Positions 19,288 to 62,194 of a stretch of DNA of 64,000 nt are shown here, piece after piece (the first letter of the stretch is position 1; the number at the start of each line of letters is the position of its first letter). The translations under genes and the position numbers were made by a program. The stretch covers positions 1-64,000 of the forward strand of contig JAFCCU010000004.1 in the NCBI GenBank assembly GCA_017610005.1, written 5' to 3'. This DNA comes from Candidatus Woesearchaeota archaeon (GTDB taxonomy: Archaea > Nanobdellota > Nanobdellia > Woesearchaeales > B29-G15). Below the pieces are notes generated by a model. The model was not told the origin of the DNA and made no database searches. It was given only the letters and a program-made list of their open reading frames with translations.

Positions 19288-19467
19288 CTTATTTTATAAG
19301 TTTTTTTTTGATTAATATTCTCATTTTATAAGAAGAATTAAGTGTTCCATAGGAAATGGGGGGGTGTTTTCTTACAATATACTCAAAAGTTCCCATTTTA
19401 TGAGAAAATTTATATACTAGTTTTTTGAATATTCATAATAAGAAAAAATAAAATCTTAATTTATAAG
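19288..19467. promoter_or_regulatory. Four related dyads upstream of the HTH-LamG operon
   Basis: CTTATTTTATAAG (19288-19300), CTCATTTTATAAG (19320-19332), CCCATTTTATGAG (19392-19404) and CTTAATTTATAAG (19455-19467) share the pattern ATTTTATAAG, and two are inverted repeats around a 3-base centre. The first two are 32 bases apart. They lie in the 268-base gap before a GTG-started HTH gene, with an origin-box-like site between the second and third. They may be operators for the duplicated-HTH protein just downstream. Confidence 0.5.
19344..19366 (+). promoter_or_regulatory. Isolated origin-recognition-box-like site (ORB5)
   Basis: GTTCCATAGGAAATGGGGGG matches the dyad-plus-G-run layout of archaeal origin recognition boxes and closely resembles the sites upstream of orc1 in this window (CTTTCCACAGGAAATCGAGGGG and others). 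It lies about 11 kb from the probable origin, in the promoter region of the LamG operon. Confidence 0.5.
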
Positions 19468-19486: not shown

Positions 19487-19942
19487 GTGAATAACCCAAA
19501 TCTAAAAGAGGATGTTGAAACAATTAAACTCCTCTTAGAAAAGCATAATTTAACTGTTGGGGCACTAGATCTAATATTAAATGAAACCTCAATTAACATC
19601 CCCTTATCAATTTTCAAAAAAAAAGCTGGTCCTTTAAGTGTGATTTGCCATTATCTAAAAGACTATAAAAATTTAAAATTAGTAGACATTGCCAAACTTC
19701 TAAACCGAGATCAAAGAACAATTTGGGCGTCTTATAACAAAAGTAGCATAATTAAGTTAAATATTAATTCAAAAATATTTGTTGATGTAAAAATATTTTC
19801 TAATCGCAATAACAGCATAATGGAAAATTTAACATTTTATTTAGTAAATGTTCACAAATTAAGATTAATTGAAATTTCCAAATTAATTAACAGAAGCAAT
19901 AAAACCATTTGGTGTTTTTATAATAGGGCAAAATATGTTTAA
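19487..19942 (+). CDS. Duplicated helix-turn-helix regulator
   Basis: A 151-residue protein from a GTG start, built of two repeats (about 42-86 and 103-147). Each ends in the same motif, LVDIAKLLNRDQRTIWASYNK in the first and LIEISKLINRSNKTIWCFYN in the second. The pattern 'IA.LLNRD..TIW' followed by a Tyr-Asn resembles DnaA-domain-IV or sigma-like HTH recognition helices. One chain could therefore contact two tandem half-sites. Its last 8 bases overlap the LamG gene, so it is co-expressed with it and probably regulates it. The four dyads upstream are natural candidate targets. Confidence 0.65.
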   Translation: MNNPNLKEDVETIKLLLEKHNLTVGALDLILNETSINIPLSIFKKKAGPLSVICHYLKDYKNLKLVDIAKLLNRDQRTIWASYNKSSIIKLNINSKIFVDVKIFSNRNNSIMENLTFYLVNVHKLRLIEISKLINRSNKTIWCFYNRAKYV

Positions 19943-29876: not shown

Positions 29877-30342
29877 CTCCCTACCCATTATTTCCATTAG
29901 AACCAGTGATTCCGCGTATAAATTATGTATAAATATAGTCAGAAGATTGAAGTTGGAAGTGAGGCGTATTGAGCATTTGTCAATCTGCAATATTTTACAT
30001 TCTAAATTTGAATGATTTTATCCAAAAAACATATTTTAAATTTATACTGTAAACTTTTTACTTCTGACTTTAGACTTCTGACTTCTGACTTTAGACTTTA
30101 GACTTTAGACTTCTGACTTCAAACTTCTGACTTCAAACTTCTGACTTCAAACTTCATTTCTCTCTTACTCCTTCATTTCCTATGGAGATACTCTTTATCT
30201 TTCTTTATTATTATTTACTATATTGAAAATAATTATTATTATATATTACTTTCCACAGGAAATCGAGGGGTAGGTGTTTAGCAGAATTTTATATATATTT
30301 ACTATGCTATAAATCTTTAAATACCCTTACTTCCTTTGGAAC
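29877..30342. other. Probable chromosomal replication origin (oriC)
   Basis: Upstream of orc1 lie four sites resembling archaeal origin recognition boxes: 29877-29903 (minus, GTTCTAATGGAAATAATGGG), 30167-30187 (minus, CTCCATAGGAAATGAAGGAG), 30249-30276 (plus, CTTTCCACAGGAAATCGAGG plus GG) and 30321-30342 (minus, GTTCCAAAGGAAGTAAGGG). The middle pair is in inverted orientation around a 61-base stretch (30188-30248) with only 6 G or C, a natural unwinding element. This is the classical euryarchaeal layout: inverted boxes flanking an AT-rich element next to cdc6/orc1. The neighbouring polB and polC genes, as in Pyrococcus, support the call. Confidence 0.75.
30051..30154 (-). repeat. Heptamer array beside the origin
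   Basis: About fourteen tandem heptamers. Read on the minus strand they are mixtures of AAGTTTG, AAGTCAG and AAGTCTA. The array ends 13 bases before the first of the inverted origin boxes. The same heptamer family recurs at 36519, 38922, 39173, 57641 and 61890 in this window. A weaker trace lies at 29938-29965. Confidence 0.9.
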
Positions 30343-30347
30343 TTTTT

Positions 30348-31559
30348 ATGGTCAAAGATCAATTAGGCGAATTTTTTGAAGATTTTCTAAAAAAAGAGTC
30401 AATTTTTACAAATAAGAATTTTTTAGGTACTTCTTATACTCCAGATACCATTCTTCATAGGGAAGATCAAATCAAGTTAATTGCAGATATTCTTGCACCT
30501 CTATTAAAAATGGAGAAGCCTTCAAATCTATTTGTGTATGGAAAGACTGGGACTGGTAAAACTGTTTCTGTGAAATACACTACTGACCAAATTGAGAAAG
30601 TTGCAGCAAAACATAACAAACCAATCAAGGTATGTTATCTAAATTGCAAATTAAAGAAGATCGCAGATACTGAATATAGGTTGATTGCCCATATTGCTAG
30701 GATGTTTGGAAAAGCAATCCCCCCTACTGGCCTCCCTACTGATGAGGTGTATAATATATTTTACAAAGCAGTTGATTCAGAAAAACAATTAGTTGTTTTG
30801 GTATTAGATGAGATTGATCAGTTAATTAAAAAAGCAGGAGATGAGATATTATATAATCTTACAAGAATTAATGAACAACTATCTCTCTCACAAGTTTGTG
30901 TCATTGGCATTTCAAATGATCTGATGTTTATTGATAACATTGATCCAAGAGTCAAATCTAGTTTATCTGAAGAAGATTTAGTATTTCCTCCTTACAATGC
31001 AATTCAAATACAGGAGATTTTACATGAACGTGCTAAACTTTCATTTCGGCCTGGTTCCATTGGTGCAGGCGTAATTGAAAAGACAGCAGCATTTGCAGCA
31101 AGGGAACATGGAGACGCAAGAAGGGCATTAGACTTATTAAGGGTCGCAGGAGAACTAGCAGATCGGGAAGATTCTTCTAAGGTGGAGATTAAGCATTTGG
31201 ATGATGCAGAAGGAAAAATTGAGAGAGATCGGGTAATTGATATTGTATCTACCTATCCTAAACAATTTCAAGTAGTATTATATGCAATAATGGTTTTACG
31301 TAAGACTCAAAAAGGGGCGTTATTTACTGGAGAGATTTATGAAATTTACAAGGACTTTTGTAAAAATGTAGGGGTCTCTCCATTGACTCAAAGAAGAGTA
31401 TCAGATATTTTGGGGGAGCTTGATATGCTGGGGTTAATTAACGCCAAAGTAATTTCCAAGGGGAGGTATGGTAGGACAAGGGAGATTTCGCTTGCCATAC
31501 CACAAAATACAATTCCCAAGGTTGAGGAAATTCTGGTTACAACCCTCCATATCCGCTAA
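30348..31559 (+). CDS. cdc6: Orc1/Cdc6 replication initiator
   Basis: A 403-residue AAA+ initiator that binds origin boxes and loads MCM. ATG 30348 is preferred to the TTG at 30336 of the ORF track. Walker A is VYGKTGTGKT; Walker B is VVLVLDEIDQLI; sensor regions lie around VIGISNDLMF and DPRVKSSLSEE; and EHGDARRALDLLRVAGE is the sensor 2/lid motif. A winged-helix domain follows (about 300-403, with LTQRRVSDILGELDMLGLI). An origin-box-like site sits between the TATA-like sequence (about 30315) and the start codon, suggesting self-repression. It is 9 bases from polB. Confidence 0.96.
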   Translation: MVKDQLGEFFEDFLKKESIFTNKNFLGTSYTPDTILHREDQIKLIADILAPLLKMEKPSNLFVYGKTGTGKTVSVKYTTDQIEKVAAKHNKPIKVCYLNCKLKKIADTEYRLIAHIARMFGKAIPPTGLPTDEVYNIFYKAVDSEKQLVVLVLDEIDQLIKKAGDEILYNLTRINEQLSLSQVCVIGISNDLMFIDNIDPRVKSSLSEEDLVFPPYNAIQIQEILHERAKLSFRPGSIGAGVIEKTAAFAAREHGDARRALDLLRVAGELADREDSSKVEIKHLDDAEGKIERDRVIDIVSTYPKQFQVVLYAIMVLRKTQKGALFTGEIYEIYKDFCKNVGVSPLTQRRVSDILGELDMLGLINAKVISKGRYGRTREISLAIPQNTIPKVEEILVTTLHIR

Positions 31560-31568
31560 TTTTGCAGA

Positions 31569-33008
31569 ATGGACTCGGGTGTTCTTAATTGGTTTATGGA
31601 TAAAGGGCTTTTAATTAGTCCTGAAACTGCTGATTTATTAGATGATTCTATTATTTCTCAATTAAGAGAACAAGTGTTAAATTCTCCAGAGACAATTCCA
31701 CTTGTTATTGATGAAAATTTTATTAATTCATTAAAACCAAGAGCTGCCGGGTTTAATGTTGAAATTGTAAAGTCTTTCCAAGAACCATCTGAAAAAAGGG
31801 ATATGAGGGATTTTGTAGGCCATTATAATGCAAGGTACAATACATTGAGGCAAATGCTTTCAGATAGGCCAGGACTTCAAAATATAGTTTCAATTGGTCG
31901 TTTGAAGAATAAAACAGATAGGGAAAACATTTCAGTTATTGGAATGATAAGAGATATTGGATATACAAAGAATAATAATATCATAATCCAATTAGAGGAT
32001 CCTACTGGCACAGTTCCTTTGATTATCACTAAAAATAACAAAGAAGTTTTTGATCTTGCAACAACTCTTACTTTAGATGAAGTAATAGGAGTTAGTGGGA
32101 TGTCTGGAAAAAATGTATTATTCTGTTCTGATATAATTTGGCCAGATATTCCTATGTTTGAATTAAGAAAATCTCCATTAGATGAATCTGCAATAGTCCT
32201 TTCAGACCTTCATGTTGGTTCAAATATGTATCTTGGAAAAGAATTTGATAGATTTCTATCTTGGATTAGGGGAGATGTGGGGAGCGATAAACAAAAAGAA
32301 ACAGCAAAAAAAGTAAAGTATATATTTATTATAGGGGATTTAGTAGATGGCGTGGGGATTTATCCTGGGCAATATGAAGAATTAACAATTAAAGATATTT
32401 ATAAGCAATACGAAGAGTGTGCAAGATTGATTTCAAAAATTCCGAAGGATAAAGTGATAATAATCTGTCCAGGGAATCACGACGCATTAAGGCTTGCAGA
32501 GCCTCAACCCCCCTTAAGTAAGAAATTGGCAAAACCCCTTTATGAAATCCCTAATGTGATAATGGTTAGCAATCCTGCGATTGTAAATATTGGTAAGACA
32601 AAAGAATTTTCAGGGTTTAATGTGCTAATGTATCATGGGTATAGTTTTGATTATTACGTTGCAAATATTGAGTCAATTAGAAATGCAGGAGGATATAACC
32701 GGCCAGACTTAATCATGAAATACCTTCTCAAAAGAAGACACTTGGCACCTACAAATGGTTCAACACTATATGTCCCTCAAAAGGGTTCAGATCCATTAGT
32801 AATTAATACAATCCCTGATTTTTTTTTTACTGGCCATATCCACAAATCCGTAATTACCAATTTTAAAAATATAACACTTGTTTGCGGATCTTGTTGGCAA
32901 GGAAAAACTTCATTTCAAGAAAAAGTAGGCCATGAACCAGAGCCGTGTAGGGTGCCATTAATTAATTTACGAACAAGGAAAATGAGGGTTTTGAAATTTG
33001 GTGGTTAG
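31569..33008 (+). CDS. polB: DNA polymerase D small subunit (DP1, 3'-5' exonuclease)
   Basis: A 479-residue proofreading subunit of the archaeal replicative polymerase PolD. An N-terminal helical part is followed by an OB-fold (about 115-200, SVIGMIRDIGYTKNNNIIIQ). Then comes a calcineurin-like nuclease domain with all motifs intact: LSDLHVGSNM, IGDLVDGVG, CPGNHDALR, YHGYSFDYY and FTGHIHKS. It lies between cdc6 and polC; its stop TAG directly touches the polC ATG. Length is normal. Confidence 0.95.
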   Translation: MDSGVLNWFMDKGLLISPETADLLDDSIISQLREQVLNSPETIPLVIDENFINSLKPRAAGFNVEIVKSFQEPSEKRDMRDFVGHYNARYNTLRQMLSDRPGLQNIVSIGRLKNKTDRENISVIGMIRDIGYTKNNNIIIQLEDPTGTVPLIITKNNKEVFDLATTLTLDEVIGVSGMSGKNVLFCSDIIWPDIPMFELRKSPLDESAIVLSDLHVGSNMYLGKEFDRFLSWIRGDVGSDKQKETAKKVKYIFIIGDLVDGVGIYPGQYEELTIKDIYKQYEECARLISKIPKDKVIIICPGNHDALRLAEPQPPLSKKLAKPLYEIPNVIMVSNPAIVNIGKTKEFSGFNVLMYHGYSFDYYVANIESIRNAGGYNRPDLIMKYLLKRRHLAPTNGSTLYVPQKGSDPLVINTIPDFFFTGHIHKSVITNFKNITLVCGSCWQGKTSFQEKVGHEPEPCRVPLINLRTRKMRVLKFGG

Positions 33009-36000
33009 ATGAAAGGAGTAATACTTGATAGTTATTTTGCGGATATTGAAAAGAAACTTAAAGAAGTTTATGAAGTTGCAAATGCTGCTCGGGCAAAAGG
33101 TCTTGATCCTAAACCTAAGGTTGAAATCCCTGCCGCAAGATCCATGGCAGAACGTGTAGAGGGTTTAATATCTGCCATTGCCCCTCAAATTGTTGGCCAG
33201 GGTATGCCTCAAAGAATTGAAGAACTTGAAAAAAAGTATGGTTCGCTTGATTGGAGAATCTCCTTAATTATTGCAGAGGAAATTGCAAAAGAAAAATTTT
33301 GTAAATTTGAGAGTAAAAAAGAAGCAATGGAGATTGGGATTAGGGTAGGATTTGCTTATCATACTCTTGGAACTGTTGCAAGCCCTCTTGAAGGATTTAT
33401 TGGTCTGGATATAAGAAAAAGAAAAGATGGAAAAGAGTATTTTGCACTTCTTTATGCTGGGCCAATTAGATCTGCAGGAGGAACTGGCGCGTCTGTTTCA
33501 GTGCTAATCTCTGATTATATCAGAAGGGTTTTTGGTTATGATGTTTATGACCCTCAACCTGTTGAAATCAAACGAGCAGTAACAGAAGTTGTAGATTACC
33601 ATGAGCGTGTTACAAATTTGCAGTATTACCCAAGTAAACAAGAAATTGCATTCATGGCTGAAAAATTACCAGTTCAAATTGATGGTCCTGAAACTTCAAA
33701 AGTTCAAGTGTCCAATCATCGAGATGTGGAGCGAATTGAGAGTAATTTTATTAGGGGAGGATTCTGCCTTGTTATGGCAGAATGTTTGTGCCAAAAGGCT
33801 CCAAAGGTATTTAAAAATATTAGTAAATGGGGTAAAGAGTTTTCTTTAGATCAATGGAACTTTCTTGAGCAATTTATCAAAATCCAAAAAAAAGCCAAGG
33901 CAGCATCTAAAGGAGAATCAACAAAAGAACAAAGAATCACTCCAGACTTTACATATATTAAAGATATAGTTGCAGGCCGTCCTGTTTTAAGTCACCCTAT
34001 GGAAAATGGGGGGTTTAGATTAAGATATGGGAGGGGGAGATTATCTGGCTATTCTTGTGTTTCAATTAATCCATCTATGATGGTTACATTAAATGGGATG
34101 CTTGGCATTGGAACTCAACTTAAAATGGAGAGACCAGGAAAAGGCGCAACTGTTACTCCTTGCAGTGTTATTGATGGGCCAATTGTAAGGCTTAAAGATG
34201 GCACAGTTGTTAAAGTAAATACTGTTGAATATGCAAAAACTATAAGAAGTAAAATTGAAGAAATTTTATATTTGGGAGATATACTTATTTCTTATGGGGA
34301 TTTTTTTAATAGGGCCCACCCCTTGGTTCCAGCAGGATATTGTGAAGAATGGTGGGTGCTTGAATTTGAAAAATCAATTGTGGATATGTTTGGAGCCCTT
34401 GATTTAGAGAAGGTTGCAGAATACACAGGAATTGATGTTGAAATAATAAAAGACATCTTAAAAAATCCGTTTGAAGAAATATCTTCTCCTTTAGCATTTT
34501 CTTTAAGTTCAAGTTTTGGAATTCCTCTTCACCCCCTTTATACTTATTTTTGGGAAACATTGTCTCTTGATGAATTTAAACAATTAATAAACTGGTTGAA
34601 AGGGGCGAGGGTTATTGCTGAGCAAGGCAATCCTAAAAAACTAATATTGAATAATGTAGAAAAGGAAAAAAGATTCTTAGAATTAATTGGTCTTCCTCAT
34701 CAAGTTGTCAATAAAGAATTTGTGGTGATTGGTTCTCAAGATTCTCAAACGCTTGCTAAATTAGGGATTAAAAATGAAGTACCTCCCGATGCAAAAGATC
34801 CCTTAGATGCTCTTTTTAAAATGTCTGGAATTAAATTAAGACCCAAAGGGGGTATGTTTATTGGTGCGAGAATGGGGCGACCAGAAAAAGGAAAAATCAG
34901 AAAAATGAAAGGCTCTCCACATGGATTGTTTCCTGTAGGTGAAGAGGGTGGCAGAATGAGGTCCCTTCAAGGAGCACTTCAAATGCAAAAAGTCACTAGC
35001 GACTTTCCAATTTATCATTGCAATAAGTGTAAAAAAGAAACAATATATCCTAAATGCGAAGTTTGTGGAAGTAAAACTGAGAAGTGGGTTTATTGTAGAA
35101 AATGTGCAAAAGCATTACCTAAATGTGATCTTCATAAAGACTTTTGCAGTTCTTATAAAGAAATTGAATTGGATATTAGGGCCCATCTCTCTTCGGTTTT
35201 AAAATCATTAAAGATGAGAACTTTTCCTGATTTGATTAAGGGTGTTCGAGGAACTTCAAATCGTGGCCATGTCCCAGAACATTTGGCAAAGGGTGTGTTA
35301 AGGGCTAAAAATAACATCCAAGTAAATAAAGATGGTACAGTCAGATTTGACATGACGCAATTACCAATAACTCACTTTAAGCCTAAAGAAATAGGGACCC
35401 CTATTGATGTACTTATTAAATTAGGATATGAAACCGATATGGGTGGAAATAAATTAACAAATGAAAACCAAATTTTAGAATTAAAACCCCAGGATATTAT
35501 ATTGCCTAATTGTGTGGGGGCACCTGAAGAGGGGGCCAATAAAATCTTTGTTAGAGTTGCCCAATTTATTGATGAGCTTTTAGTTAAACACTATCATCTT
35601 AAACCATATTACAATGTTAAAACTAGTTCAGATTTAATCGGTGTATTAACTGTTGTTTTAGCGCCTCATACTTCTGCAGGGATAGTATCTCGGATAATTG
35701 GGTTTTCAGATACCCAATGCTTATTTGCTCATCCAATGCTTCATGCAGCAACTAGGAGAGATTGTGATGGTGATGAGGCATGCGCAATGCTTCTCTTAGA
35801 TACTCTAATTAACTTTTCAAGAGACTATCTGCCAGCCCATAGGGGGGCCACGCAAGATGCACCATTAGTAATTACCTCTATGATTAAACCCTCTGAAATT
35901 GATGATATGGTCCTTGATATGGATATTGCCCCAAGATATACCTTAGAATTTTATGAAGCAGCTCTTGAATACAAGACACCTTATGAAATCAAAGTTGATC

Positions 36001-36509
36001 AGGTTGTTAATTATATTAAAACAGATACACCTTGTTCGGGCTTTTCATTCACTCACGATACAGAAAATATGAATGCAGGCGTACTAGTTTCAACATATAA
36101 AACTCTACCTACGATGGCTGAAAAGTTACTAAATCAAATGCAACTAGCAAAATCAATTAGGGCGGTTGATACAACTGATGTTGCAAGACTAGTTATTGAG
36201 AAGCATTTTATTAGGGATATTAAGGGGAACCTAAGAAAATTCTCAATGCAACAATTTAGATGTGTAGATTGCAATAAAAAATTTAGGCGTCCCCCCTTGG
36301 TTGGTAATTGTGATGATTGCGGTGGAACTTTAATTTTTACAATTTCAAAAGGTAGCATAGTTAAATACCTTGAACCAGCATTAGAACTTGCAAGGAAGTT
36401 TGAAGTAGCGCCTTATCTGATGCAATCTCTTGAATTAACAAAAGCTAGAATTGAAGAGTATTTTGGAAAAGAAAAAGAAAAACAATCAGGATTGGCAGAG
36501 TTTGTTTAG
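33009..36509 (+). CDS. polC: DNA polymerase D large subunit (DP2, catalytic)
   Basis: A 1166-residue catalytic subunit with the two-barrel RNA-polymerase-like active site. The metal-binding motif RRDCDGDEACAMLLLD is intact, and the upstream GPIRSAGGTGAS and GARMGRPEKGKIRKM segments are typical. A zinc ribbon lies at about 675-715 (HCNKCKKET...CEVCG...CRKCA), and another near the C-terminus carries FRCVDCNKKFRRPPLVGNC. No intein is present, although DP2 is a common intein host. The C-terminus ends KQSGLAEFV without an obvious PIP box. The operon cdc6-polB-polC next to the origin matches the Pyrococcus arrangement. Confidence 0.96.
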   Translation: MKGVILDSYFADIEKKLKEVYEVANAARAKGLDPKPKVEIPAARSMAERVEGLISAIAPQIVGQGMPQRIEELEKKYGSLDWRISLIIAEEIAKEKFCKFESKKEAMEIGIRVGFAYHTLGTVASPLEGFIGLDIRKRKDGKEYFALLYAGPIRSAGGTGASVSVLISDYIRRVFGYDVYDPQPVEIKRAVTEVVDYHERVTNLQYYPSKQEIAFMAEKLPVQIDGPETSKVQVSNHRDVERIESNFIRGGFCLVMAECLCQKAPKVFKNISKWGKEFSLDQWNFLEQFIKIQKKAKAASKGESTKEQRITPDFTYIKDIVAGRPVLSHPMENGGFRLRYGRGRLSGYSCVSINPSMMVTLNGMLGIGTQLKMERPGKGATVTPCSVIDGPIVRLKDGTVVKVNTVEYAKTIRSKIEEILYLGDILISYGDFFNRAHPLVPAGYCEEWWVLEFEKSIVDMFGALDLEKVAEYTGIDVEIIKDILKNPFEEISSPLAFSLSSSFGIPLHPLYTYFWETLSLDEFKQLINWLKGARVIAEQGNPKKLILNNVEKEKRFLELIGLPHQVVNKEFVVIGSQDSQTLAKLGIKNEVPPDAKDPLDALFKMSGIKLRPKGGMFIGARMGRPEKGKIRKMKGSPHGLFPVGEEGGRMRSLQGALQMQKVTSDFPIYHCNKCKKETIYPKCEVCGSKTEKWVYCRKCAKALPKCDLHKDFCSSYKEIELDIRAHLSSVLKSLKMRTFPDLIKGVRGTSNRGHVPEHLAKGVLRAKNNIQVNKDGTVRFDMTQLPITHFKPKEIGTPIDVLIKLGYETDMGGNKLTNENQILELKPQDIILPNCVGAPEEGANKIFVRVAQFIDELLVKHYHLKPYYNVKTSSDLIGVLTVVLAPHTSAGIVSRIIGFSDTQCLFAHPMLHAATRRDCDGDEACAMLLLDTLINFSRDYLPAHRGATQDAPLVITSMIKPSEIDDMVLDMDIAPRYTLEFYEAALEYKTPYEIKVDQVVNYIKTDTPCSGFSFTHDTENMNAGVLVSTYKTLPTMAEKLLNQMQLAKSIRAVDTTDVARLVIEKHFIRDIKGNLRKFSMQQFRCVDCNKKFRRPPLVGNCDDCGGTLIFTISKGSIVKYLEPALELARKFEVAPYLMQSLELTKARIEEYFGKEKEKQSGLAEFV

Positions 36510-36518
36510 GACCTAAAT

Positions 36519-36574
36519 AGTCTGAAGTCTGAAGTCTGAAGTCTGAAGTCTAAAGTCTAAAGTCAGAAGTCAAA
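36519..36574 (+). repeat. Heptamer array after polC
   Basis: Eight tandem heptamers: AGTCTGA four times, AGTCTAA twice, then AGTCAGA and AGTCAAA. They begin 9 bases after the polC stop, in the convergent gap before the DUF424 gene. Same family as the array beside the origin, in the opposite orientation. Confidence 0.95.
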
Positions 36575-38979: not shown

Positions 38980-39633
38980 TTAGAGTACCTTAACCCTACT
39001 TGGTGCCACTTTAAAAATCTCCCCATCTTTAATTAAACTATCAATAACACCATCAATATCTTCAATATCTGCCTTTTTTGCAACTGCAATAATATCGGCC
39101 CCCTCTCCCAAGTCAAGTTCTTTAATTAATTCAAAAACCAATTGCTTAGGGCTCACTTCTTCTTCAGATTTCTTACTTCCAACTTCCAACTTCTCTGGGT
39201 TTTGAGGTCTGAGGTCTGAGGTCTGAGATTTTTTTGTTTTATTACCTTTAGAACCAATTTCTAGATTATGAAGCTCTAAGAAGTTTTTATCAGGCAGTAC
39301 CTTAACAATTTCTGGAATAACATATCTTGCAGTATTATACTCTCTTACTCTCCCAATAATTCTTACCATTGAGCCAATTTCTGGATCAAATATCTGGGCA
39401 TCAAACGCCCTGATAGGGATTGCACCAGATCCATCATCCAGTAAGAATTCATTATAGCCCTGTCCTGGATTTTTAGAAACAACAATTCCTGTGAGATTCA
39501 CACGAGCAACATTTATTTCTCTTCCATGGATATAAAATGTAGCTGCTTGATCTGGCACTTCAGTTATTGCTGCATCTAGTAACTCTTTAATCTTTACAAG
39601 ATATGCAGTAAGCCTTGGTTTAAACTCAGTCAT
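38980..39633 (-). CDS. RPA32-like OB-fold single-strand DNA-binding protein
   Basis: A 217-residue protein. The OB-fold (about 35-125) contains ARVNLTGIVVSKN, FLLDDGSGAIPIRAFD and GSMVRIIGRVREYNTARYV, matching RPA2/RPA32 and Stn1-type domains. A low-complexity linker (about 130-155) is encoded by heptamer-family repeats, and a C-terminal winged helix (about 160-217, FELIKELDLGEGADIIAVAK) resembles the RPA32 C-terminus. It overlaps mcm by 4 bases (ATGA), so the two are translated together at the fork. It is a likely partner of a larger RPA subunit encoded elsewhere. Confidence 0.8.
   Translation of the reverse strand: MTEFKPRLTAYLVKIKELLDAAITEVPDQAATFYIHGREINVARVNLTGIVVSKNPGQGYNEFLLDDGSGAIPIRAFDAQIFDPEIGSMVRIIGRVREYNTARYVIPEIVKVLPDKNFLELHNLEIGSKGNKTKKSQTSDLRPQNPEKLEVGSKKSEEEVSPKQLVFELIKELDLGEGADIIAVAKKADIEDIDGVIDSLIKDGEIFKVAPSRVKVL
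39173..39230. repeat. In-frame heptamer repeats within the OB-fold gene
   Basis: ACTTCCA twice and AGGTCTG three times occur inside the reading frame, encoding the linker between OB-fold and winged helix (KKSQTSDLRPQNPEKLEV). The repeats are in the same degenerate family as the intergenic arrays and seem to have expanded within a tolerant linker. Confidence 0.85.
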
Positions 39634-41651
39634 AGTCTGGAAATAAAGCCTGATTTTGGCTCAAAAATGTCTCCAGACCGCCTTAATTGCTCTAGTATTT
39701 CTTCTACTTCATCACCCTTTACCCCTTTTTCTTTGCAGGCGGCAACGACATCTTCAATTGGTATTGTTTTACCTAGTTTGTCTTCAAGTTCAATAATAAT
39801 ATCTTTGACATTATGAATTCTTCCCCTATGTGACGCGCTCACTCCAGTTGTTATCCTATCAATATCAATTTCTCCTGTTTCTGGATCCATCCCTACCTTC
39901 ACAAGGCAGTATTGAAGTAATTGAATTGCTTGCAAGGCATCTTGCTTTTCAACGGTTTTACTTAACCGTAGTTTAGCAGAAGCTTCACTCATCCTTACTA
40001 ATGCCTCGAGCTGTCTGGGGGATATAGGGATACTTCGCGCCACGCTTCCTTCTGTAATCCCTTTTTTCCTCATTTTCACATAAAAACTCTTAATTGAATT
40101 TATTGCATCGTCAGTTAATTGAGGGTTCACCTTCTGTTTTGCGTATGCAATATATTTTCTAAAAAATTTGTCATCAATTTCAGGAGTTGTTATTATTGGA
40201 TCTTTGTGTAATGATAAAATATGGGTAGCTAATTTTTCATCTCTTACTTCATCAGGAATATCTTTTATGGGAAATATTAAATCAAAACGATTGATTAATG
40301 CAGGAGGCAGATCAATTTGTTTACCTATCATTTCATAAGGATCAAATCTTCCAAATTTAGGGTTTGCTGCAGCAAGCACAGTTGTTCGTGAAAGAAGAGT
40401 TGCCTGAACATTTGCTTTAGAAATACTAATTGTTTGCTGTTCTAGTGCTTCATGCATTGCACTTCTGTCATCGTGACTCATCTTATCAAGCTCATCAATA
40501 CAGCATATGCCATCATTTGCTAGCACTAATGCTCCCGCTTCAAGAGACCAGCCCCCTAAAAATTCATCTTTAACAACTGATGCTGTTAGTCCAGCACCAC
40601 TAACTCCCTTTCCAGACACATACCGCCCTTTTGGGGCAATTACTCCTACTCGTTTTAAAAGTTGAGATTTACCTGCACCAGGATCTCCTACAAGCAGTAC
40701 ATGGATATCTCCCCTAGTTACAACTCCATCGCTCCTCTCTTTTCTCATTCCTCCTACAAGTTGGAGTAATAATGCATGTTTCACAGTATCATGCCCGTAG
40801 ATAGATGGAGCCATGGCACCTAAAAAAACATTTAAAAGGTCTGGTCTTTTGGATAATTCTAAAATTTCTGTTTCTTCCCCCTCTGTTATTTCAAGTTGGA
40901 GAAATGATTCTTCAAAAGATTCAATTGAGTTGCCTTCCAACACTAAATCAAATTTAGTTGATTTAGCCCCTGTTCGCAATACCTTCTGGATTTCTTTGAC
41001 CCATCCCACAATCCTTACTTTTGCTCCAGGATTAGTCTGCCTCTCTGAAGTAGGACTTACAAGATCTTCTTTTAAAAAAACATTTAATCGTTTTGGCTGT
41101 TCTCCTCCTTCAAGACTTTCCGGCACTTCTTCAATTACAAGCCCTTGTGCATCAACAAGTTCACGGTCAAGTTCCCTGAATTTCCCACGTCTTCCACAAG
41201 AACAACTTGTTGGTTCTTTAAATTGAGATGTGGGCTGCAAAACAGTAATCACAGTGTTACATGCAGGGCATTCAAATCTTGCGCTTGTAACTCTTGGCCT
41301 TACATCGGATTTTTGCCTTACAAGTCCATCAATAACAAGCATCTTGTTTAATTCAGTACTTCTAATATCTCTAATGAGCACATTTTGAGAATCAGGCAAG
41401 TCATAAAATCGTAAATAGAATTTTGTGATATCCTCTGGTAAATTAAATTTAGCAACTGCCATCTCGCCTGCTTTTAATACATCTTCTGGATTTTCTAAAA
41501 GCTCTTCTGCAAGCTCTGAATCAAAAGTTAAAAGAAGAGAGAAACTAAGGGAGAAATGACTCTCCCCCTTTCTAATTGCATCCATTAAATCCTCATAGAG
41601 GTTTGTCTGCAAAAACTCAAAAAAATGATTTATCTGATCTTCAGGTTCCAT
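39630..41651 (-). CDS. mcm: MCM replicative helicase
   Basis: A 673-residue MCM. The N-terminal domain carries the zinc-binding region (FECPACNTVITVL...SCSCGRRG) and double-hexamer contacts. The AAA+ core begins with SIYGHDTVKHALLLQL. Walker A is GDPGAGKSQ, Walker B is GICCIDELDKM, sensor 1 is AAANPKFG, and the arginine finger is in PALINRFDLIF. The C-terminal winged helix ends RRSGDIFEPKSGFISRL. No intein. The start lies 5 bases after the TBP stop, with AAAGGGG before the ATG. Genes for TBP, MCM and an RPA-like factor are therefore in one transcript. Confidence 0.96.
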   Translation of the reverse strand: MEPEDQINHFFEFLQTNLYEDLMDAIRKGESHFSLSFSLLLTFDSELAEELLENPEDVLKAGEMAVAKFNLPEDITKFYLRFYDLPDSQNVLIRDIRSTELNKMLVIDGLVRQKSDVRPRVTSARFECPACNTVITVLQPTSQFKEPTSCSCGRRGKFRELDRELVDAQGLVIEEVPESLEGGEQPKRLNVFLKEDLVSPTSERQTNPGAKVRIVGWVKEIQKVLRTGAKSTKFDLVLEGNSIESFEESFLQLEITEGEETEILELSKRPDLLNVFLGAMAPSIYGHDTVKHALLLQLVGGMRKERSDGVVTRGDIHVLLVGDPGAGKSQLLKRVGVIAPKGRYVSGKGVSGAGLTASVVKDEFLGGWSLEAGALVLANDGICCIDELDKMSHDDRSAMHEALEQQTISISKANVQATLLSRTTVLAAANPKFGRFDPYEMIGKQIDLPPALINRFDLIFPIKDIPDEVRDEKLATHILSLHKDPIITTPEIDDKFFRKYIAYAKQKVNPQLTDDAINSIKSFYVKMRKKGITEGSVARSIPISPRQLEALVRMSEASAKLRLSKTVEKQDALQAIQLLQYCLVKVGMDPETGEIDIDRITTGVSASHRGRIHNVKDIIIELEDKLGKTIPIEDVVAACKEKGVKGDEVEEILEQLRRSGDIFEPKSGFISRL

Positions 41652-41656
41652 CCCCT

Positions 41657-42250
41657 TTAGGACACATTCTTTAGATTTTCAATAAGCATGTCAACTGCTT
41701 TGTCAACTGCTTCTCTTGTTTTGGTTCCAGTGCATACAATCTTACCATTAGTGAATAATAGAAAGGTTGCATTGGTTCCTTTTAATTTGTATACAAGCCC
41801 AGGAAACTGCTCTGGTTCATACTCTGTGTTTCTTAATTTTATTGCCAAAGTATTTAGATTTAGATGCATTCCAATGCTTCCGCTTGCAACAATATTTTGA
41901 ACAGTAATCACTGGTTTAATCTCGATTATAATATTGATTTTCTTTAGATTTTCAATAATTTGCTGGATTGATGCTTCGACCATCTCAATAGATCTGGCAC
42001 CAGTACACACAATCTTTCCAGAATTAAAAATTAAAGCAGAGGTTTTTGGCTCTCTAATTCTTAATACAAGCCCAGGAAACTGCTCTGGATTATATTCAGT
42101 ATTGGGCAGACTAGCAGCCATTTTTTCAAGTGGAATTTTTTTTTCAAGTGAAGAACTTACCACAATATTTACTATCTCTATCTCCTTTTTAGTTGATGCT
42201 TTTTTCTCTATATCCTTCTTAGCTGATGCTTTTTTCTCTTCCTTTGCCAT
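41657..42250 (-). CDS. tbp: TATA-binding protein (TBP)
   Basis: A 197-residue TBP with the two direct repeats of the saddle: IVVSSSLEKKIPLEKMAASL...NTEYNPEQFPGLVLRIREP and IVASGSIGMHLNLNTLAIKL...NTEYEPEQFPGLVYKLKGT. Each is followed by ALIFNSGKIVCTGARS or FLLFTNGKIVCTGTKT. A charged N-terminal tail of repeated KKASAKKDIEKK/TKKEIE (about 1-25) precedes the fold, unusual among archaeal TBPs, which normally start near the first strand. Its own promoter (minus TTTATAAAC near 42270) is likely. MCM follows after 6 bases. Confidence 0.97.
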   Translation of the reverse strand: MAKEEKKASAKKDIEKKASTKKEIEIVNIVVSSSLEKKIPLEKMAASLPNTEYNPEQFPGLVLRIREPKTSALIFNSGKIVCTGARSIEMVEASIQQIIENLKKINIIIEIKPVITVQNIVASGSIGMHLNLNTLAIKLRNTEYEPEQFPGLVYKLKGTNATFLLFTNGKIVCTGTKTREAVDKAVDMLIENLKNVS

Positions 42251-42340
42251 AGTGTTTCCCCCTTAAATAGTTTATAAAGGGGAATAGGTGGGCCTTTATA
42301 AATGATTTGGTAAGGAAAAATAGAGTTTATGGAGGGTATG

Positions 42341-42362
42341 CCTCCTTGATTTCCTGTGGAAC
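42341..42362 (-). promoter_or_regulatory. Isolated origin-recognition-box-like site (ORB6)
   Basis: On the minus strand this reads GTTCCACAGGAAATCAAGGA plus GG, nearly the same core as the box at 30249. It lies just after the TFB stop and upstream of the TBP promoter region, 12 kb from the probable origin. It may bind Orc1 and influence tbp-mcm transcription. Confidence 0.5.
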
Positions 42363-43313
42363 TTAAGACGAGGAAGTGGCCTTAAGAAGTTCTTCTTCTA
42401 AAAGTTTTTTTACCTTTCTGATCTCTTCTCCAAGTTCTAATGCACGTACAAGCTCTTTGTAGCGATTTCTAATAGTCACTTCAGTAACACCTGAAATCTC
42501 TGAAATCTTACTTTGAGTCTTTCTTTCTGCATTAAGTAATGAGGAAACATAAATTGATGCTGCAGCAACTCCTTTTGGAGATTTTCCACTTGTAAGACCC
42601 ACTTTTTGGGCTCTTTCAATCAATTTTACTGCTTTAGTTTGGGTTGCAGGAGAAATTTTTAGCTCAGATGAAAATCTTGCAATGTAAGTTATTGGGCTAA
42701 CTGGTAAAACTTTAATGTTAAGCTGTCTTGCAACAAATCTTGAGTTTTTTGCAACCTCTTTTTTCTCAAGGCCAGTAACCTCTGAGATCTCTTCAAGTGT
42801 TCTTGGAGAATCATTTCTTTTACATGTAATATACATGGTTCCCGCAACAACTTGTTCCATACTTCTTCCACGAACTAGGCCTTTTTGAACTGCCATTGTA
42901 TAAATCCTTGAGGCTTCTTCTTCTACACTGTCTGGTAAGTTTAAGTTAGAACTAATCCTTTTAATTTCAGTTAAGGCCATTCTTAGGTTTCTTTCAATTG
43001 CTGTTGAAACCCTTCTTTGCCATTGCTGAAGTCTGTAAAACTTTTGTCTTTCTTTTCCTTTTAAGGCAGAGATATCTGCGTTACTTCCAACTTGTGTACC
43101 TAGACCTTTATCTGCCTGTGTATAGGTCATTGGAGCTCCGCCTCTCCTGCCACTTTGTCCGTTAGAGTCAAAATCACGCCATTCTTGACCAAAATCAATC
43201 ATCTTGTCTTCTAGAACAAGTCCACATTCTTTACAAATTACTTCTCCTTTCTCTTGATTAACATAAAGATTAGTATTTCCACACTCTGGACATTTTTTCA
43301 TGTGAGTCTTCAT
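42363..43313 (-). CDS. tfb: Transcription initiation factor B (TFB)
   Basis: A 316-residue TFB taking ATG 43313, which has a strong Shine-Dalgarno (AGGAGGTG) before it; the ORF track uses GTG 43322. Features: the N-terminal zinc ribbon (CPECGNTNLY...ICKECG), the B-finger/linker (GQEWRDFDS and GAPMTYTQADKGLGT), then two cyclin repeats. The second contains KGVAAASIYVSSLL and a DNA-recognition HTH (SEISGVTEVTIRNRYKEL). It binds the BRE and TBP to fix transcription direction. Confidence 0.97.
   Translation of the reverse strand: MKTHMKKCPECGNTNLYVNQEKGEVICKECGLVLEDKMIDFGQEWRDFDSNGQSGRRGGAPMTYTQADKGLGTQVGSNADISALKGKERQKFYRLQQWQRRVSTAIERNLRMALTEIKRISSNLNLPDSVEEEASRIYTMAVQKGLVRGRSMEQVVAGTMYITCKRNDSPRTLEEISEVTGLEKKEVAKNSRFVARQLNIKVLPVSPITYIARFSSELKISPATQTKAVKLIERAQKVGLTSGKSPKGVAAASIYVSSLLNAERKTQSKISEISGVTEVTIRNRYKELVRALELGEEIRKVKKLLEEELLKATSSS

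Positions 43314-61514: not shown

Positions 61515-62194
<680 letters not shown>

Follow-up and report, generated by a model that had tools for sequence, protein, structure and literature searches.

The closest described counterparts of the locus reported here are the oriC1 of Sulfolobus/Saccharolobus and the oriC of Pyrococcus/Thermococcus. At oriC1, the elements ORB3-DUE-ORB2 lie beside the Orc1-1 initiator gene in a region of 130 bp (PMC12141716). In Pyrococcus and Thermococcus, oriC is found directly upstream of cdc6, with the ORB, mini-ORBs and promoters interleaved (PMC4010727, PMC5663688). The common ORB motif of DoriC is TCCA[CG]T[TG]GAAA[TC][GA]AAGGGGT (Ori-Finder 2, PMC4164010). Other roles are known as well: in Saccharolobus, Orc1-2 is a non-initiator Orc that regulates transcription (PMC9738581), and an Orc1-titrating ORB cluster is known in Haloarcula (PMC3936714). 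Our literature search, subscription papers excepted, retrieved no described origin in the present lineage or in DPANN and no ORB at an mcm promoter.

The window analysed here, 64,000 nucleotides, covers bases 1-64000 of a 68,144-bp contig in a draft genome of 1.575 Mb (62 contigs). Among named sequences, its Orc1 has its nearest relatives in Candidatus Woesearchaeota metagenome bins (77% identity). Positions 30164-30274 are very probably the core of a Woesearchaeote replication origin of the oriC1 type (Table 1). The joint reading, in which such an origin is bound by Orc1 and Orc1 also regulates at tbp-mcm, is highly probable; from the sequence, conservation and placement of the boxes and from the skew, all observed, we infer binding, melting, the start of replication and the sign of regulation. 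The origin is of a known type, its box centre being slightly altered, and the recurrent ORBs at tbp-mcm are the new part.

Table 1. Features of the origin and of the distal ORB loci, in window coordinates
Feature	Position	Strand	Details
Distal ORB, top site of the window, intergenic	19343..19368	+	34.7 bits; genome-wide E 1.8e-5
151-aa gene downstream of the 19343 ORB	19487..19942	+	two helix-turn-helix-like repeats by eye
ORB 1, outer, weak	29879..29904	-	GGTTCTAATGGAAATAATGGGTAGGG / TTCTAATGGAAATAATGGG, 18.0 bits
Heptamer repeat array, 14 copies	30060..30156	.	ACTTCTG/ACTTTAG/ACTTCAA; dispersed genomic repeat
ORB 2, left arm of inner inverted pair	30164..30189	-	ATCTCCATAGGAAATGAAGGAGTAAG, 28.6 bits
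AT-rich segment between inner boxes, putative unwinding element	30188..30250	.	63 bp, 7 G/C
ORB 3, right arm of inner pair, best origin box	30249..30274	+	CTTTCCACAGGAAATCGAGGGGTAGG, 31.2 bits
TATA-like element of orc1	30287..30301	+	TTTTATATATATTTA; TATATATAT conserved in G001/G002
ORB 4, weak, over expected orc1 transcription start	30318..30343	-	AGTTCCAAAGGAAGTAAGGGTATTTA, 17.3 bits
orc1, Orc1/Cdc6 initiator, Orc1-1 type	30348..31559	+	Pfam Cdc6_C, Cdc6_lid, AAA
polB/DP1, small PolD subunit	31569..33008	+	Pfam
polC/DP2, large PolD subunit	33009..36509	+	Pfam
OB-fold/RPA-like gene after mcm	38980..39633	-	ORF; named by sequence reading only
mcm, replicative helicase	39630..41651	-	NCBIfam MCM, E 5.7e-217
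tbp, TATA-binding protein	41657..42250	-	NCBIfam
Distal ORB in tbp-mcm promoter	42338..42363	-	24.8 bits; TATA 61 bp downstream of box start

All four boxes that the earlier note had placed within 466 bases exist, although only ORB 2 and ORB 3 are strong. They share the dyad-plus-G-run form and lie near the published consensus, one centre base differing. They were scored with a 26-position matrix made from 31 ORB-like sites that precede orc1 in other genera, the window's own genus being left out; the consensus of these sites is TTTCCATAGGAAATnAAGGGGTG, and TCCA..GGAA...GGG is invariant in 28 that were aligned. By this matrix the six top sites of the window, at 17.3-34.7 bits, start at 19343, 30249, 30164, 42338, 29879 and 30318, and thus include all four boxes. 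In Markov sequences of the window, sites of at least 17 bits arise at 0.135 per 64 kb, or at 0.00033 per 566 bp when the local intergenic composition is used, and no site of at least 24 bits arose in 200 trials. Since four boxes occur in 466 bp where 0.00033 sites are expected per 566 bp, chance is excluded. The proposal that the boxes are chance or low-complexity matches in A/T-rich intergenic DNA could appeal to the low scores of boxes 1 and 4, but conservation in sister species and across families also opposes it, and it is scarcely credible. It is refuted for boxes 2 and 3, while box 1 may have arisen in this way.

Genome-wide enrichment had been set beforehand as a test of the origin, and the boxes passed it, being denser here than in the rest of the genome. 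Searching all 1.575 Mb with a profile made from the site sequences alone gave 8 matches at E<=10: five in the window (three at the origin, two distal), a tandem pair on contig C8, and a single weak one. The match of ORB 3 has an E-value of 1.4e-4 for the whole genome. A count over 60 genomes yielded 146 profile matches: orc1 accounts for 53 and tbp/mcm for 37, 19 belong to one additional gene family, and the remaining 37, mostly weak or at contig ends, lie in other places. The expression suggested by the earlier reader, TTCCAnAGGAAAT, was dropped as a search tool on its own: with one mismatch allowed it found 30 genome sites against 19 for its reversed control and is therefore too loose alone, while its exact matches number four in the genome, three of them inside the window. 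Several ORB matches lie a few dozen to a few hundred bases from contig ends (G052, G059, G057, G021, G054, G018, G039), as if assemblies break close to ORBs.

As at oriC1 of Sulfolobus/Saccharolobus, two ORBs are inverted around an A/T-rich segment next to an Orc1-1-type gene. The dyads of ORB 2 and ORB 3 face the segment, which is 89% A/T, and their G-runs point outwards. The description of 61 bases with 6 G or C holds for 30188-30248, the full gap being two bases longer. Unlike in Sulfolobus, where the whole region spans 130 bp, the core gap is 63 bp and PolD genes follow orc1. The position immediately upstream of cdc6/orc1, with PolD genes next, resembles that of oriC in Pyrococcus/Thermococcus; TK1902-1903, which come after cdc6, are the PolD subunits. 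The box centre there is TCCAGTGGAAA, whereas here it is TCCAyAGGAAA, and the G-run here is full. Compared with the DoriC motif, the Woesearchaeal ORB is equal in length, spacing and G-run, but its sixth core base is mostly A in this lineage (TCCATAGGAAAT), with some families of the order keeping TCCAGTGGAAAC.

The initiator gene adjoining the boxes appears to be their cognate. Its product scores above the cutoff for the NCBIfam ORC1-type equivalog, and the PDB structure closest to it belongs to S. solfataricus Cdc6-1 (2qby_A, E 4.9e-110). The protein is complete, and its winged helix retains the RRVS and GRYGxTREI of the S. solfataricus and A. pernix structures; such residues contact the ORB (PMC9738581). 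The order of initiator and then both PolD subunits was correctly recognised from the start, orc1, DP1 and DP2 being contiguous and all on the plus strand. A second Orc1/Cdc6-like protein of 275 aa, about 25% identical to Orc1, is found at G000:C33:351-1175. It is apparently without the C-terminal winged helix and, with two stops in the match region, is possibly truncated.

The inner pair is found at -186 and -99 (box start to orc1) in all three species of the genus (the window, G001 and G002), and the segment between the boxes is AT-rich at the matching place in the G001/G002 alignment. No counterpart of ORB 1 was found in these two relatives; a minus-strand box occurs about -340 to -460 from orc1 in many other families. 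Order-wide, most orc1 genes with enough upstream DNA have a plus-strand box near -75 to -170, in a survey where some of the counted sites had also trained the matrix, and a minus-strand box often lies farther upstream. ORB 4 does sit between the TATA-like element and the orc1 ATG, as the earlier note had observed. Its position is kept in G001 and G002 with a degenerate box (9.7 bits in G001). With a weak box whose position is kept in the genus only, autorepression of orc1 through ORB 4 is plausible, and we regard the chances for and against it as about even.

Nucleotide disparity adds a separate line of evidence. In 2-kb steps across the window the raw GC skew is irregular with no clean switch, and we therefore used the skew at third codon positions (GC3). 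It is -0.127 to the left and +0.038 to the right of 30200, and its cumulative minimum over the window lies at the gene just before orc1. The predicted switch near 30200 was thus borne out in GC3, but not in raw GC, and the cumulative GC3 curve has a second, nearly equal minimum at about 43 kb. In G011, a relative assembled in one contig, 21 sampled stretches show GC3 skew passing from negative to positive at orc1 (764 kb) and back again between 130 and 195 kb, near the antipode, half a genome from orc1 being 113 kb; a rank test gave p 3e-4, with replichores assigned from the assumed antipode. The disparity is thus extreme at the locus in one window and one sampled relative.

These data bear on a different reading of the boxes, namely that they are operators for autoregulation of orc1-polD while replication begins elsewhere. 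In its favour, many families have the plus box beside the promoter, either -76 to -81 or -99 relative to the orc1 ATG, and similar boxes clearly occur at a non-origin promoter, that of tbp-mcm. Against it stand the inversion of the two boxes about a segment very rich in A/T, which known origins share, the GC3 skew that turns at orc1 in both the window and G011, and a gene neighbourhood that is the same as at known oriC1 loci. We therefore consider the operator reading improbable. Box density, skew and the conserved inner pair support the origin reading that had been proposed.

According to the origin reading, Orc1 from the adjoining gene would bind ORB 2 and ORB 3, distort the DNA, open the A/T-rich gap and recruit MCM there, as at Sulfolobus oriC1 (PMC12141716). 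Forks would then leave the 63-bp segment in both directions. Orc1 on ORB 4, over the orc1 start, would probably lower the expression of its own operon, orc1-DP1-DP2.

The heptamer array to the left of ORB 2 was considered as an origin iteron or unwinding element and rejected, the repeat being dispersed through the genome and a search of the G001 origin having found no array. Its 12-mer GACTTCTGACTT has 110 genomic occurrences, the reversed control one. The array is probably not part of the origin. Heptamer tandem repeats also occur in the window at 36519-36571, 39203-39227 and 61890-61921.

One of the two distal ORBs in the window lies 12 kb from the origin, between tfb and tbp and upstream of tbp, mcm and a third gene. 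This third gene has no NCBIfam match, and its homologues come after mcm in relatives. In other genomes, profile matches on the strand opposite to orc1 are found at a distance of 11-17 kb from it, always upstream of tbp-mcm. The matrix, for which orc1 sites alone had served as training set, was run at a threshold of 15 bits on 500-bp stretches preceding tbp (or mcm) in relatives. Of 58 mcm-linked tbp (or mcm) promoters across the order, 40 had a box exceeding this score and 18 had none, against 0 of 58 with the reversed matrix, so that ORBs occur at these promoters above chance across species. The tbp genes unlinked to mcm carried no box (0/6). In G007 tbp is located elsewhere, and two boxes are found at mcm. 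G056 was dropped as a further case of separation, since both genes lie at contig ends and so give no evidence of it. In a wider sample assessed by coordinates, 17 more genomes of the order have an ORB at tbp-mcm among the matches listed; other orders of the class have no match just upstream of mcm among the matches listed, which extend to E 0.0028. In several genomes (G020, G021, G027, G044, G053 and others) mcm matches in two parts within one long frame (1055-1888 aa), probably because of inteins; G020 has two adjacent frames.

Orientation and spacing to the promoter are constrained at tbp-mcm. The boxes point at the gene in 38 of 40 cases, and tandem boxes are 81-86 bp apart, about eight helical turns, in 15 of 16 pairs. 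With TATA elements picked by a simple rule, the TATA starts 61 bp after the box in seven genomes including the source genome, and other distance clusters exist. Because ORBs recur upstream of mcm-linked tbp (or mcm), Orc1 probably also regulates the helicase genes; that the tbp-mcm ORB functions in transcription seems to us more likely than not. Orc1 would probably bind the single or tandem ORBs upstream of the operon and regulate its transcription, so that helicase supply is coupled to the initiator level. In this proposal an initiator-family protein acts at promoters, like Saccharolobus Orc1-2 and the autoregulator DnaA of bacteria. Orc1-2, however, is a dedicated paralogue that is no initiator and has a motif of its own, whereas here the initiator's own origin box recurs at tbp-mcm.

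The ORBs at tbp-mcm, at 19343 and on C8 might instead serve as secondary origins, dormant origins or Orc1-titration sites comparable to Haloarcula hispanica oriC2D, with no transcriptional role. Both kinds of site have been described in haloarchaea (PMC3936714, PMC4595724), and the tbp-mcm box is just 12 kb from the origin. Against this stand the single orientation, the helical phasing and the fixed TATA distance at tbp-mcm, the presence of boxes at mcm-linked promoters and not at unlinked tbp genes, and the lack of an inverted pair. Dormant origins or titration sites are thus rather unlikely, and the orientation and phasing favour a promoter role.

The other distal ORB, at 19343, has a run of seven G. 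Downstream, the 151-aa gene has its TATA 66 bp from the box start; compared with families, this gene gave no more than weak HTH_38/HTH_23 matches. It precedes a gene for a 2592-aa LamG-domain surface protein. This ORB and the C8 tandem pair, both outside the origin, are only partly explained. Boxes, frequently in pairs, also flank a small gene in 12 genomes; its product has a long helix (coiled coil) and a winged helix. The gene is single-copy, and the loci where single or paired ORBs flank it include G000:C8:3505-3557, G002:C13, G005:C8, G023:C28, G026:C52, G030:C39, G052:C22 and G057:C95. The protein matches no Pfam or NCBIfam family at cutoff, and its structural model (mean pLDDT 85, pTM 0.46) weakly resembles winged-helix regulators. 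The family was collected from genes beside boxes, which biases the proportion of members carrying them; the loci of two members found independently (G029, G041) have no box above 14 bits. We lean slightly towards an order-wide Orc1 regulon, in which orc1-polD, tbp-mcm-rpa and the coiled-coil and winged-helix gene carry origin boxes, the tandem boxes being eight helical turns apart.

The analysis provides a testable core origin and a lineage consensus for the Woesearchaeal lineage. The form of consensus suggested in the earlier note was right; as an origin finder it falls short, since it also finds the conserved tbp-mcm sites, and a scan by consensus alone would yield false origins. That it marks a promoter class as well is a warning for origin scans. 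If Orc1 does govern tbp-mcm, the supply of initiator, helicase and basal transcription would be coupled in one circuit in these reduced archaea. With the supply of initiator, helicase and TATA-binding protein linked in this way, archaea would have a parallel to the double life of DnaA, and how archaea limit initiation would become a testable question. In one relative, an ORB also lies upstream of ftsZ (G029:C11:11135).
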